This document shows positions 45,810 through 51,214 of a stretch of DNA of 64,000 bases, one piece after another. A model generated the notes under the pieces. It was not told where the DNA came from. It saw only the letters and a program-made list of their open reading frames with translations, and ran no database searches. The DNA is from Weissella diestrammenae (GTDB lineage Bacteria; Bacillota; Bacilli; Lactobacillales; Lactobacillaceae): NCBI RefSeq assembly GCF_014397255.1, contig NZ_CP060724.1, positions 1,550,001-1,614,000 of the forward strand. Direction: 5' to 3'. A program made the translations under genes and the position numbers. Positions within the stretch are counted from its first letter, which is position 1; the number at the start of each line of letters is the position of its first letter.

Positions 45810-46679
45810 TTAAACTTTCTCACGATAATGTTCTCTAAAATCGCGAGGTGATAATCCCGTAACTTTTTTAAAATGATTTGAAAACGAAATATATGATTCA
45901 TACCCAACAATAGTTGAAATGCTTTTTAACAATACATTACTTTTTACTAAATACTCTTTAGCGACTTCAATTCTTAAATCATCTAGCACTTCTAATGGTG
46001 TTTTTCCATAAATTTGTCTTGAAACACGGGCTAAATAATTGATATGCAAATGAAAATGACTCGAAATATCTTGATTAGTTAAATGCCGACAAATATTTTT
46101 TTCTAAATATAAATGGATTTTTTCGGCCAAAATTGTAACACGATCTTTTGTAAAGCCTTCATTTTCTATATATTTTAAGAATTTCAAAAATAATTCTTCA
46201 GTATGCCAAATTGCATCTACGTCTGTTTTTTCAGTACTACTTTGAATTTGCAGTAATAATTCGAAAATCAATTCTTGGTCGAGAATTTCAGCCTGTTTTG
46301 GTAAATGTAGCGTGTAGTTTCTCTGATGGAAATGTAAATCAGGAATTGGTAGCATCGAAGTAAAGTGTTTAGGCCGATTACTTTCTTCCCACTGGGCAGT
46401 TGTATAAATATGAATCCAAAAAAATTCAGTTTTTTCTTCACACGCCTGCCATGAGTAATGATGTTGATCAGGTAATAGAATGAACATCTCGTTTTGCTTG
46501 ATTGTGTAATTTAATCCAGCTTCAGATATGAACAATTGTCCTTTTTTTACAAAAATTAAATCAAAGTACCCTAATTTGTTTCGATCAGGATGCATCTGTC
46601 CAGCTTGAAAAGAGGTTAGATTCCCTTCGATAAAGTTTGGGAACGGCGGTAAAGCAATCGAAATGATTTTTTGTTCCAT
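45810..46679 (-). CDS. AraC-family transcriptional regulator
   Basis: The 289-residue regulator has an N-terminal cupin-like sensing domain (FDLIFVKKGQLFISEAGLNY, FILLPDQHHYSW) and a C-terminal double helix-turn-helix (ISSHFHLHINYLARVSRQIY, GKTPLEVL, then ISTIVGYESYISFSNHFKKV). ATG 46679 is preceded by GGAGGGCTTT; the frame reaches 46691 by a TTG that falls inside the RBS, so that start is rejected. It lies between the glycoside transporter and the DUF5695 gene and is their likely activator. Confidence 0.9.
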   Translation of the reverse strand: MEQKIISIALPPFPNFIEGNLTSFQAGQMHPDRNKLGYFDLIFVKKGQLFISEAGLNYTIKQNEMFILLPDQHHYSWQACEEKTEFFWIHIYTTAQWEESNRPKHFTSMLPIPDLHFHQRNYTLHLPKQAEILDQELIFELLLQIQSSTEKTDVDAIWHTEELFLKFLKYIENEGFTKDRVTILAEKIHLYLEKNICRHLTNQDISSHFHLHINYLARVSRQIYGKTPLEVLDDLRIEVAKEYLVKSNVLLKSISTIVGYESYISFSNHFKKVTGLSPRDFREHYREKV

Positions 46680-46700
46680 AAAGCCCTCCAAATGAACAAC

Positions 46701-49069
46701 CTATTTCAGCTCATCTTCATTAATTTTAATTTGATGATTATTATCTGTGATTCCAATTTTCTTTAGCATCGATGATTTTATTAAATAAACTTCTGCTTGG
46801 TATGGCGTAAAGCTAGTTATAATAATTTGATTATTCTGATAAGAATAAGTTCCATTAATCACCTGAAGGTCATTATCTTCATAAATAACAAAAGTTTTTT
46901 GACCGATGCCGTCAAGATATGCAACAAGTTCTTCCCCATATCCCAATCAGATGTTTTCTCATTTCCAGTAAAGAGTCTTTTGAATATGCCACCATCTTGG
47001 TGGAAGGTAGCTTGTCCAAATCGCGCACGAGACAAATCTGGCCGATTTATATGTGGGCCAGCAACTGAATATGTCGAAGCGGCCATTCCAGTCGAAATGG
47101 GTGTCGTTGCGGTTGCGTTATTGTCATAACAATACAAAATACCTGGTAGTGAGCGATAGCTTGCTTTTAAATATTCAATGTTATTATTCAACTCAAAGAC
47201 CTTATACGCCGAGGCTGACGTAATTCCACCCCATAACGAATGAATCATATAGCTTAATGCTTCCCACCAGCGATCCGGATTTTGTGCTCTAAAGTCATTC
47301 GAAATACCGATGTTTGCTAGCAATAATTCGCCATACAATTCAGCGCTTTCTTTTTGTTTAGCTGAACTCATTGCGCCAGCAGTTGGGCCAAATCCAGCAT
47401 TGTCATAGAAATGCTCGGTAATTGCAGCGTTATATGTTTTACTTTGACTAGCAATTCTTCGCGTTGTTTTTGTCCAAAGTTCATTTATCTTATGATATTC
47501 ATCGGTTAAATGGTGCGCCTTTAATTTATTTAAAAGTGAATCAATATATAAAAAGTACACACCTAGCATTTGCGCTTCTTCTTTACCTCTGTCTGTTTCA
47601 TGTAAGTCGGGATCAACACGCAATTCAAAAACGTCTGCTGCCCATTTTAAATACGTATTAGGTTGATTGATTTGTAATACGTCTTCATCAAATTCTGACA
47701 AAAGATAGAAAAGGTGTCCAATATACTCAAAATCCATACATCGGTAAAAGCTACCATATAGGAATGCAGGTGTTCTTAAATCACCATCTTGAAACCATTT
47801 CTGTTTAACATAGTGAACAGCACTTGCTTCGACTTGTTGGACTTGTTGTATATTTAATTGACCTAATAAATTCTTTTTAAGAATTAAATTTAATTTTCCT
47901 AATGACTCCCCTTGATTGGAAACTGGCGTAAACGCATATGGTACTTCACCATCTGGCCCTAAATAAGAATGAGTTGATAGATAATCAACCCTAGTTTCAA
48001 GTAGTTGATCCAATGGTGGCATTACATTCAATACAATAAAGTCTGAAGTACCATCGTCAAAAGTAAATTCGATTTTATGCTCGCCTAACTGATCTGAGAC
48101 AAATGTCAACTCAAAATTGTCAGTGCCTTTTTTGACCAAATTTTGATTGAGCAGTCTTTTTGTTTGACCGTTTCTACCAGAAATACTTTTAACGGTAATT
48201 ACCCGACGCTCGGCACTATCAATTTTGATATGAATTTCCTGGCCGATTATACTCAACGGATCAAACACAATGACTGGGTGATGTGCAGCTTTTGCGTTCT
48301 TGTAAAATTCATTAGTATTATCATTAACATTCATAACATACTGCCATACTTGACATTCATCAGGACCAAGGGTGATATCACTTTGGCTATATATCCAGTC
48401 GTTCGGATTATTATTTTCATCATAACCACCTGCCAATATCAATTGATGAAATAACATGCCGTCTAAGGAAGGCGATACATTCTCGAAAAATTTATTGTCA
48501 TAATCACAATAAGTACCAATAGATTTTGTTTCACCTTTGATTTGATATAGTCCCAAACTCATTCCAGCATTATCACGTCTGACAAGATTAAGTTTTGTAA
48601 AGTTAGTTGAAATCGATGGGAAAACAGCTGTTGATTGATGCATATTACGTGCAACATTTTTGTCACGGAACATGATATAAGCAAACGAAATCCACACGCC
48701 AAAATAATTGACAGTCAAGGCACTGCTTGTCAGATTGATTAGCTTAATGGTCCACACTAACTGCCCTTCTTGATCCAAAAAATAATCGAATTCAACTTTT
48801 ACAAGTTTTTCAATCGTGTAAATCACACTGATATTTTGATTGTTTTGCAAAATTTGAGGGCCCATTTGATAACTTTCAAACGTATTTCCATCAATCGTCA
48901 ACTTAAACTGGCCGAATAATTTATTTGAATCATTGTAATCATTTTGTTTCAGATATTGATTGTCAATGACCCAATTCATATGATATTGGTCTTCTTTCAT
49001 GATTAATGATTTAATGTACCCTGCTTTAGCAACTTCTAATTGTATCTTATCATTTTCAATCACTGTCAT
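46701..49069 (-). pseudogene. DUF5695-type glycan-active protein, frameshifted near the 3' end
   Basis: A long frame from 49069 encodes about 710 native residues of a DUF5695-like protein (N-terminal beta-sandwich, then an alpha-helical part with FLYGSFYRCMDFEYIGHLFY and FGPTAGAMSSAKQ), probably acting on a carbohydrate. At about 46934-46937, a run of four G on the coding strand, the frame is lost: it ends soon in nonsense at 46859, while the frame to 46701 continues EELVAYLDGIGQKTFVIYED and a beta-strand tail. Adding one G restores the match. Either start 49069 (ATG, touching the RBS) or GTG 49063 (seven bases after GGAGG) is possible; the latter fits better. A sequencing error is possible. 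Confidence 0.75.
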
Positions 49070-49308: not shown

Positions 49309-49764
49309 TTAGTGCCACTCAACTTTACCAGCTTGAAAGGCATCCGCTTCCAATAATTCTGATAAGAATACGTTACCTAAAGTTTGGATATAATTTTTTT
49401 CTGCAGATAATAATACTTGTGAAATGAATTTTTTGCTCTCATTGATGTGGTTTTGGTTCTGAAAGACCTTATTTGCTAGATTTGATGGGGTAAATTGAAT
49501 AACTGGGGTATCTTCAATTGCAAGTAGAATATCAGCGAGGGCTATTTCATCTGCACGTTTCAATAGTGTATAACCACCGTCTTTTGATGCATTTGACTCG
49601 ATGAGCTTTGCCACGACCAATTTGCGTAACGTTTTTTTTAATGAAGAGTCAGATATGAGCAAAAGTTCGCTTAATCGAGTACTTTTAATGCTCGTATGAT
49701 TTATTTGCGTCGCCAAAACGATTAAAACAAATATGCTGATTTCAAAATCTTTTGGTAATTTCAT
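49309..49764 (-). CDS. Rrf2-family transcriptional regulator
   Basis: The 151-residue regulator has an N-terminal winged helix (ISIFVLIVLATQI, STRLSELLLISDSSLKKTLR, KLVVAKLIES) and the Rrf2 wing KDGGYTLLKRADEIALADIL. There are no cysteines, so it does not hold an iron-sulfur cluster like IscR or NsrR; it resembles YwnA-type members. Its start overlaps the stop of the NAD-binding gene by four bases, so the two form an operon and it may regulate that gene. Confidence 0.85.
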   Translation of the reverse strand: MKLPKDFEISIFVLIVLATQINHTSIKSTRLSELLLISDSSLKKTLRKLVVAKLIESNASKDGGYTLLKRADEIALADILLAIEDTPVIQFTPSNLANKVFQNQNHINESKKFISQVLLSAEKNYIQTLGNVFLSELLEADAFQAGKVEWH

Positions 49765-50336
49765 GGCAATCTCACCAAGTCATCTATTAATTGGTTAGCT
49801 AAAACTGACACCTTAATTGGTTTAAATTTTTTTGAAAATTTGCTCATGAATTTGAGAATTGGCACCATTTTAGTGATATTATCTTTTCGACCACCGCCAT
49901 AGACAATCGTTGGCTCTACAACACTTAAACGTATTTCTGATGCTTGCAGCATCTCAATGATTTCAGACTTAATGTCAGTGAATGATTTAGGGCCTAATTT
50001 ACCACCAATTATACCCATTGCAGATACCTGATAATGTCTGGCTAGTTGCAACATCATCTGAGCTGGCTTGACATTAATATCAATTAATTCTTTTTTATTT
50101 TTTTCGGGTCGCCCAATCAAATCAATAATATAATCAACTTTTTTTGGTAACTGTCCAATCATCTGCGCTGTATTACTCAAATCTGCTTGAATGACTTGAA
50201 TTTGACGGTTGTTGAAATTGTTTACGTTGTTTCGAGAAATGATAAAGAAACTAACCTGCGGATCACGCTTTAACCATGCTCGTGTTATTTCACGTCCAAT
50301 ATAGCCAGTACCACCTAATAGAACGACATTTGTCAT
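49761..50336 (-). CDS. NAD(P)-binding oxidoreductase (NmrA/atypical SDR)
   Basis: The 191-residue protein has the dinucleotide motif VVLLGGTGYIGREITRAWL, DLSNTAQMIGQLP, VDYIIDLIGRPE and VVEPTIVYGGGR. It resembles NAD-dependent epimerase-like proteins without the catalytic YxxxK, so it may be a sensor or reductase. It is first of a two-gene operon with the Rrf2-type regulator, overlapping by four bases. Confidence 0.82.
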   Translation of the reverse strand: MTNVVLLGGTGYIGREITRAWLKRDPQVSFFIISRNNVNNFNNRQIQVIQADLSNTAQMIGQLPKKVDYIIDLIGRPEKNKKELIDINVKPAQMMLQLARHYQVSAMGIIGGKLGPKSFTDIKSEIIEMLQASEIRLSVVEPTIVYGGGRKDNITKMVPILKFMSKFSKKFKPIKVSVLANQLIDDLVRLP

Positions 50337-50644: not shown

Positions 50645-50989
50645 TTATTTAATATTTTTCAGCGCATTCTTTGCAATTTTTTGTTGATCCGCCGTGCCTT
50701 CTTTTGCAAATCTTTCAATAATATGCCGTTTTTTTGAACGTTCCTGCATGACGCCCATACCATTGATATGGTTAATATGTTGATACGTATCGATACTATT
50801 AATTAATTCTACATAGTCATTTTTAACAATGTACAAATCAATCTGTTCGATTAGGATTTCATCAGTTGTATATTGTCGCATTGCATGCAAATCATCATTA
50901 CTCAAATCAGTAACTGTGAGAACGCGATCAACGCCAAATTGTGCTAGCATCATACCTCGTAATTGTTGGTTTAGTTCCTTTGTGTTCAT
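50645..50989 (-). CDS. Small protein of unknown function behind a SAM-I riboswitch
   Basis: Not recognised. The 114-residue soluble protein is largely helical and charged: MNTKELNQQLRGMMLAQFGV, a middle with DEILIEQIDLYIVKNDYVEL, and a basic C-terminus (QERSKKRHIIERFAKEGTAD). No cysteine, signal peptide or membrane span. ATG 50989 is preceded by GGGAGTTTTGCC; the frame extends 8 codons further into the leader without support. It is the only gene after the S-box leader, promoter and terminator at 51035-51214, so its expression should rise when S-adenosylmethionine is low. A link to methionine or SAM metabolism is therefore inferred, not shown by the protein itself. Confidence 0.7.
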   Translation of the reverse strand: MNTKELNQQLRGMMLAQFGVDRVLTVTDLSNDDLHAMRQYTTDEILIEQIDLYIVKNDYVELINSIDTYQHINHINGMGVMQERSKKRHIIERFAKEGTADQQKIAKNALKNIK

Positions 50990-51034
50990 GGCAAAACTCC
51001 CGTTTAACGTCACGTGGACAGAATTTTACCAATT

Positions 51035-51066
51035 AAAAACCGCATTCGGAAATACGAACGCGGTTT
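51035..51066 (-). terminator. Riboswitch expression-platform terminator
   Basis: On the minus strand AAACCGCGTTCG pairs with CGAATGCGGTTT (12 bp, one G-T) around TATTTC, followed by TTTTT. It lies between the SAM-I aptamer and the gene start, so it controls read-through. Confidence 0.88.
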
Positions 51067-51075
51067 AACTCGATA

Positions 51076-51166
51076 CGTATATCCGTTTACAGTGGAGCAC
51101 CTTGCCGAATCGGTAGGTTGCTGCTGGGTCAAAGTGTGTAACCACTCGCCAGCTCTTGATATTGCG
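51076..51166 (-). ncRNA. SAM-I (S-box) riboswitch
   Basis: Read on the minus strand, the leader shows the S-box order: ATATCAAGAG (51162-51153), P2 arm GCTGG with CCAGC, a kink-turn-like GCGAG...TTTGACCC, then the invariant GCAACC (51121-51116), hairpin P3 ACCTACCGATTCGGCAAGGT, GGTGCT (51101-51096), and the closing GGATAT, which pairs with the 5' ATATC as P1. GGATATACG (51084-51076) can instead pair with CGTATTTCC (51056-51048) in the terminator, giving the antiterminator. SAM binding would favour P1 and termination. P4 is short, so a covariance search should confirm the class. Confidence 0.82.
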
Positions 51167-51185
51167 ATATTTAATTGATATGGGT

Positions 51186-51214
51186 AGTATAATTCCGCCC
51201 TGTTTTAAAGTCAA
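51186..51214 (-). promoter_or_regulatory. Promoter of the SAM riboswitch transcript
   Basis: On the minus strand TTGACT (51209-51214), a 17-base spacer and TATACT (51186-51191). Transcription would begin near 51179, just before the aptamer. Confidence 0.8.

Follow-up and report, generated by a model that had tools for sequence, protein, structure and literature searches.

The textbook role of S-boxes is the regulation of methionine genes. The window (the whole stretch of 64,000 nucleotides of the Weissella diestrammenae genome that was analysed) has, on its minus strand, a leader with an S-box layout, followed by a single small gene without recognised family. What this leader responds to, and what kind of function it controls, is the question raised by the locus. 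We consider it likely that the unit is a mobile cassette made of a P4-less S-box attenuator and one gene, and that the small protein takes part in an accessory response to a shortage of SAM (methionine or sulfur) rather than acting as a core methionine enzyme or transporter. The switch is of a known kind; the P4-less variant and the undescribed set of genes that it accompanies are new.

Organisation of the locus

All the elements of the leader and the gene are on the minus strand. The earlier note had proposed a promoter, an aptamer, a terminator and a gene of 114 codons, and all four were found where it had placed them. The promoter is a sigma-70-type candidate, TTGACT-17-TATACT (51186..51214), with 10 of 12 matches in a consensus scan. 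Promoter-like matches as such are not more frequent than in shuffled sequences; the transcript would start in the block CAATTAAAT, which is conserved in the alignment immediately 5' of the aptamer. The S-box/SAM-I-class aptamer (51076..51165) is composed of P1, P2 with a kink-turn, P3 and a pseudoknot between the P2 loop and J3/4, with no P4, as delimited by the model RF00162, by covariation and by the class model R1 described below. Its P1 3' strand GGATATACG (51076..51084) is also the predicted 5' strand of the antiterminator, by its duplex energy with an alternative partner in the terminator. The stem-loop of the intrinsic terminator (51037..51066), AAACCGCGTTCG-TATTTC-CGAATGCGGTTT, is followed by a T5 run; it was recognised from the sequence and from the consensus fold, in which the stem displays compensatory changes. 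The antiterminator 3' strand CGTATTTCC (51048..51056), complementary to GGATATACG, is located inside the terminator. A block GTGACGTTAAACGGGAG (50997..51013), conserved in the alignment, includes the Shine-Dalgarno sequence GGGAG (51001-50997).

The S-box-controlled gene extends over 50645..50989 (ATG at 50989, stop at 50645) and encodes the orphan protein, predicted to be all-alpha. Downstream of it, the next gene (49761-50336) is preceded by a separate consensus promoter, TTGACA-17-TATAAT (50406-50378), so that the S-box gene probably forms an independent transcription unit. Positions 45810-49069 of the window encode an AraC-type regulator and a protein of 736 aa without significant Pfam match; this pair is syntenic with W. 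paramesenteroides and lies close to the cassette in both genomes.

The aptamer class

The earlier note had proposed a SAM-I candidate and a search against RF00162. In a permissive covariance scan, the window aptamer matches RF00162 over the full model length (1-108) with an E value of 1.4e-6 and a score of 35.8 bits. This part of the proposal held, together with the covariation of the class; the score itself is below the Rfam gathering score of 44.4, which is why the default Rfam scan of the window reported no match. The homologous aptamers (n = 14) obtain 36.5-41.2 bits with RF00162, likewise under 44.4. With R1, a covariance model built from the class of the window aptamer, the latter obtains 105.6 bits.

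The junction J1/2 (AUCAAGAG) and the P3 core GCAACC/GGUGC are intact relative to the SAM-I consensus and near-invariant in 20 homologues, whereas 6 nt stand in place of the 22 of P4 in the RF00162 consensus. An alignment of 20 aptamers of the class, including those of the W. confusa group, has 95% of the cells paired and 9 pairs changed on both sides; neither figure was attained by any of 500 shuffles, and sliding the pair partners abolishes the pairing signal. The covariation in these 20 homologues supports P1, P2, P3 and the pseudoknot between the P2 loop and J3-4. Five pairs of the pseudoknot are kept in all 20 sequences, two of them with changes on both sides; they read UUACA/UGUAA in most aptamers and UACCA/UGGUA in the W. 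confusa group. The window leader has the same P1-P2-P3 layout, kink-turn, pseudoknot and SAM-contacting core as the SAM-I riboswitches of RF00162, as well as their platform of P1, antiterminator and terminator. It differs from them by the missing P4, by its score under the threshold and by the five-pair covarying pseudoknot. These comparisons of sequences support its assignment to the S-box/SAM-I class as a P4-less variant. Since J1/2 and the P3 internal loop match the SAM-I consensus, SAM would be the expected ligand.

Predicted switching mechanism

The strand GGATATACG (51084-51076) can form 8 of 9 pairs with CGTATTTCC (51056-51048), with an energy of -8.9 kcal/mol, in agreement with the pairing that the earlier note had predicted. 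The corresponding duplex has -7.4 to -9.5 kcal/mol in nearly all homologous leaders. The window leader folds to -56.3 kcal/mol in the ON (antiterminator) form and to -55.9 kcal/mol in the OFF (P1/terminator) form, a gap of 0.4 kcal/mol; such near-equal modelled energies are as expected of a switch tipped by its ligand. When SAM is plentiful, it would bind the aptamer, P1 would keep GGATATACG, the terminator would form and the gene would be off. When SAM is scarce, GGATATACG would pair with CGTATTTCC within the terminator and the gene would be transcribed. We infer SAM as the ligand, and the OFF direction of the response to it, from the class of the aptamer. The cassette would be self-contained, with one promoter, one P4-less S-box attenuator and one gene; the product, a small cytosolic protein that is all-helical and evolves fast, would be made when SAM, and hence methionine or sulfur, is short.

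In contrast to RF00162, most of the relatives add a long-range helix before the Shine-Dalgarno sequence. It is formed, in the relatives' sequences, by ACGTCAC just 3' of P1 (51072-51078) and GTGACGT before the Shine-Dalgarno sequence (51007-51013), and spans the terminator. In most of the relatives its energy lies between -9.8 and -14.3 kcal/mol, against -6.5 kcal/mol in four Leuconostoc-type leaders and -6.0 kcal/mol in the window. Own partners give -10.7 kcal/mol and swapped partners -9.7 kcal/mol. With this little gain, and the weakness of the helix in the window and in the four Leuconostoc-type leaders, it was left out of the main switch.

The protein and its relatives

The absence of a recognised family for the 114-aa protein, as the earlier note had it, was borne out by the sequence searches. 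Nothing above the curated cut-offs was found in Pfam and NCBIfam (best matches DUF6858, E 0.094, and uS13, E 0.0032) nor in PHROGs (best E 0.13), and the best match of the protein profile to PDB sequences has an E value of 0.016. The AlphaFold model, with a pLDDT of 84 and a pTM of 0.68, contains five helices and predicts an all-helical protein. It has no significant structural match with Foldseek (best E 0.87 in the PDB and 0.76 among viral models), and the best VIA Z (8.1, for 55 residues) is of the size that helical proteins would be expected to give. The matches of a first profile to the ClpX N-terminal domain (E 1e-4 to 1e-3) were regarded as chance matches, as they disappeared with a fuller profile.

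Within the genus, the sole significant homologue is found in W. paramesenteroides (24% identity, E 4e-8), with an S-box directly upstream. A profile of these two proteins recovered 14 further relatives in six other Lactobacillaceae genera (E 1e-8 to 1e-17); in all 14, an S-box precedes the start codon by about 75-100 nt. An S-box is thus present directly upstream of 16 of 16 genes of the family, the window gene included. The earlier note had held that the lack of an aptamer before homologues would speak against its reading; the opposite was observed. Outside the Lactobacillaceae, the protein family was not found in 395 genomes of the order, the copy of Lactococcus being plasmid-borne. A search of named genomes with a peptide pattern found no homologues because the protein is too divergent, and a DNA pattern derived from the aptamer was used to locate the leader in these genomes. 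By this pattern scan, the leader is present in Weissella, Periweissella, Leuconostoc, Fructobacillus, Ligilactobacillus, Liquorilactobacillus and Lactobacillus. A Lactobacillus-like cassette was also seen close to the end of a contig labelled Faecalicatena absiana (L071, JAEDAG010000001.1), either by contamination or by transfer.

Relatives in other species have leaders 77-84% identical to that of the window and proteins only 17-33% identical, whereas a comparable set gives 57-85% identity for MetK. The dN/dS ratio is mostly 0.15-0.5 in close pairs of relatives, with some pairs near 1; the former values mark the ORF as a genuine gene on which purifying selection acts among close relatives. The Shine-Dalgarno sequence and the start position are conserved in the alignment of the relatives. 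The Lactobacillus members of the family contain an internal duplication.

Mobility and decay of the cassette

The cassette is carried by plasmids of Lactococcus, Leuconostoc carnosum and Latilactobacillus curvatus, where it adjoins a pilin/sortase cluster and, in some cases, insertion sequences. A leader without gene is found on a plasmid of Leuconostoc pseudomesenteroides, and broken copies of the cassette in Leuconostoc and Ligilactobacillus. A phage origin was considered and has no support, given that the cassette pattern was absent from viral contigs and the cassette DNA from phage records.

Sporadic occurrence, carriage by plasmids, rapid evolution and decay argue for an accessory function outside core metabolism, and we infer such a role for the protein. 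Hypervariable mobile accessory genes (anti-restriction, immunity, addiction) are likewise small, fast-evolving, plasmid-borne and organised as single genes with decaying copies. The window gene differs from them in being placed under a metabolite riboswitch, and no homology to them was found. The recurrence of the pair of switch and small gene across lactic acid bacteria and their plasmids points to an undescribed response to SAM shortage.

S-boxes across the Lactobacillaceae

The host genome contains a second match to RF00162 (607887-607979, 44.6 bits), located directly before metK. The scan with R1 detected at least one S-box in 96 of 397 Lactobacillaceae genomes, belonging to 18 of 40 genera. 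This contradicts an older statement that almost all Lactobacillus have lost them (PMC3766115); S-boxes are no rarity in the family, and the similar view of the earlier note, that they are uncommon in these bacteria, is not supported. The metK S-boxes of Weissella and of other Lactobacillaceae are mostly 83-93 nt long, leaving no room for P4, and some of them pass the Rfam cut-off. They are short and P4-less like the window aptamer and come from the same bacterial family, but the window aptamer has an unchanged P3 region and another target gene. In the metK S-boxes of the host and other Lactobacillaceae, this region was seen to read CACCAAC or CACCAGC...GAUGUGG instead of GCAACC...GGUGC.

Downstream genes were read for about 50 S-box sites, most of which precede metK or small hypervariable orphan ORFs. 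A genome can have up to four S-boxes, arranged in tandem or scattered (G400), and every orphan ORF has a leader of its own. These ORFs form several families without Pfam or NCBIfam match. Family B (L043-L048, W. confusa/cibaria group, for example L046 1501-2080) follows a second S-box and encodes an orphan protein of 117-149 aa; its homology to the window family was examined and is not significant (hhalign P 0.035). In most genomes the family B gene is followed by a gene for a cysteine hydrolase and one for an ABC transporter, and several family B genes contain the parS-like sequence TGTTTCACGTGGAAC in their terminal part.

The profile of family C gave 15.1, 10.1 and 8.5 bits with three members of the window family, against a maximum of 10.3 in 1952 shuffles. 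The protein of Lb. delbrueckii (L082), with 15.1 bits, is above all 1952 shuffles, and the window protein, with only 2.2 bits, is not significant. From these scores, a distant relationship between family C and the window family is likely but not proven. In L131, L142, L143 and L151, the gene after the family-C S-box gene encodes a strongly acidic protein, which ends in ...EDEQxAYGDDWDG in three of the four cases; the one member scanned had no Pfam or NCBIfam match. Family E, an orphan gene of 87 aa, is present on 54 plasmids, 50 of them from Lactiplantibacillus plantarum, and follows an S-box in L133, L136 and L140. In three annotated regions (L165, L167, L168), it is located between an IS30 element and a gene with a LysM domain. 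Another S-box of the class (L138, G315:C1:1351458, minus strand) precedes a gene that resembles, by eye, an RNA polymerase sigma factor.

A trimmed class of S-box accompanies orphan genes, plasmid-borne as well as chromosomal, in bacteria said to have largely lost the S-box (PMC3766115). This predicts that SAM shortage serves as a signal for accessory, fast-evolving functions in bacteria of food and gut, and the leader offers a uniform handle for finding the whole set of genes.

Possible roles of the protein

The classic S-box genes belong to the methionine/SAM pathway and metK of the host has its own S-box, so that the protein might be a modulator of this pathway, adjusting MetK, methionine uptake or a SAM-consuming enzyme at low SAM. 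A core metabolic partner is ill-suited to the sporadic distribution, the plasmid location, the hypervariability and the decayed copies, and no methionine gene adjoins the window gene; we regard this role as possible but doubtful. More generally, a part in methionine, SAM or sulfur handling, as the earlier note proposed, is suggested by the regulation, and sequence, fold and neighbourhood gave no sign of it. It is very unlikely that the functional product is the RNA, the terminated leader acting in trans as a small RNA, as reportedly occurs with S-boxes of Listeria, and the ORF being secondary. The leader is indeed far more conserved than the protein, but this explanation is opposed by the purifying selection that close pairs reveal in the ORF, by the conserved Shine-Dalgarno sequence and start position, and by a protein homology detectable across genera. 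Less probable still is a changed ligand, as in the spermidine-sensing variants of SAM-I. These share the SAM-I scaffold and unusual target genes with the window leader, and its score below the Rfam cut-off, its missing P4 and its association with genes foreign to methionine metabolism would be in line with such a change. However, J1/2 and the P3 internal loop are reportedly altered in the spermidine variants (PMC10853860) and match the SAM-I consensus in the window aptamer, and the targets of the class are not polyamine genes.

If the protein belongs to an accessory response to SAM shortage, as we prefer, its most likely target would be, with low confidence, a process that does harm or serves no purpose once SAM or sulfur runs short, for example modification-dependent restriction. 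In a rival reading, the protein would guard SAM- or sulfur-dependent DNA modification: it would restrain restriction, or set off a defence response, once SAM or sulfur no longer sufficed to keep host DNA modified or once a phage destroyed SAM. Fast evolution and mobility, as displayed by the cassette, are typical of defence and anti-defence genes. The regions of about 5.5 kb around 18 cassette loci were compared with 18 control loci on the same contigs. Defence genes (restriction, phosphorothioate or related) are near 6 of the 18 cassette loci: DndH (G017), a type I REase (G205), HKD-Snf2 helicases (G103, G237), a helicase of model C3a193 (G164) and PbeA (G414); the controls contain one clear case (AbiD). 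The enrichment is only marginally significant: a one-sided Fisher test, calculated by hand once the pattern had come to notice, gives p about 0.04. Defence genes are in any case common in accessory regions. On an L. plantarum plasmid, a Pbe-type (phosphorothioate-dependent) operon has a family-C gene downstream of it; on a Leuconostoc plasmid (L096 12041-12306), pbeA/pbeC are immediately preceded by a remnant leader. In G414 (L164, G414:C1:57213, minus strand), the gene just behind the S-box is homologous to the first gene of the former operon. The link of the cassettes to modification-dependent defence is a weak hint, a lead and not a result. Against a guarding role, most of the loci, that of the window included, have no modification-dependent defence neighbour, and the acidic character of a DNA mimic is not seen in the protein; we therefore think this role unlikely. 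It is more unlikely again that the Lactobacillaceae possess a dispersed mobile regulon of hypervariable small proteins, of several families under the same class of P4-less S-box on chromosomes and plasmids, that would be switched on at SAM or sulfur shortage and guard or modulate SAM- or sulfur-dependent DNA-modification defence. In the host genome no clear DndD, no clear HsdM and no C5 methylase were found; two amino-methyltransferases (N6/N4 family) are encoded elsewhere than at the window locus.
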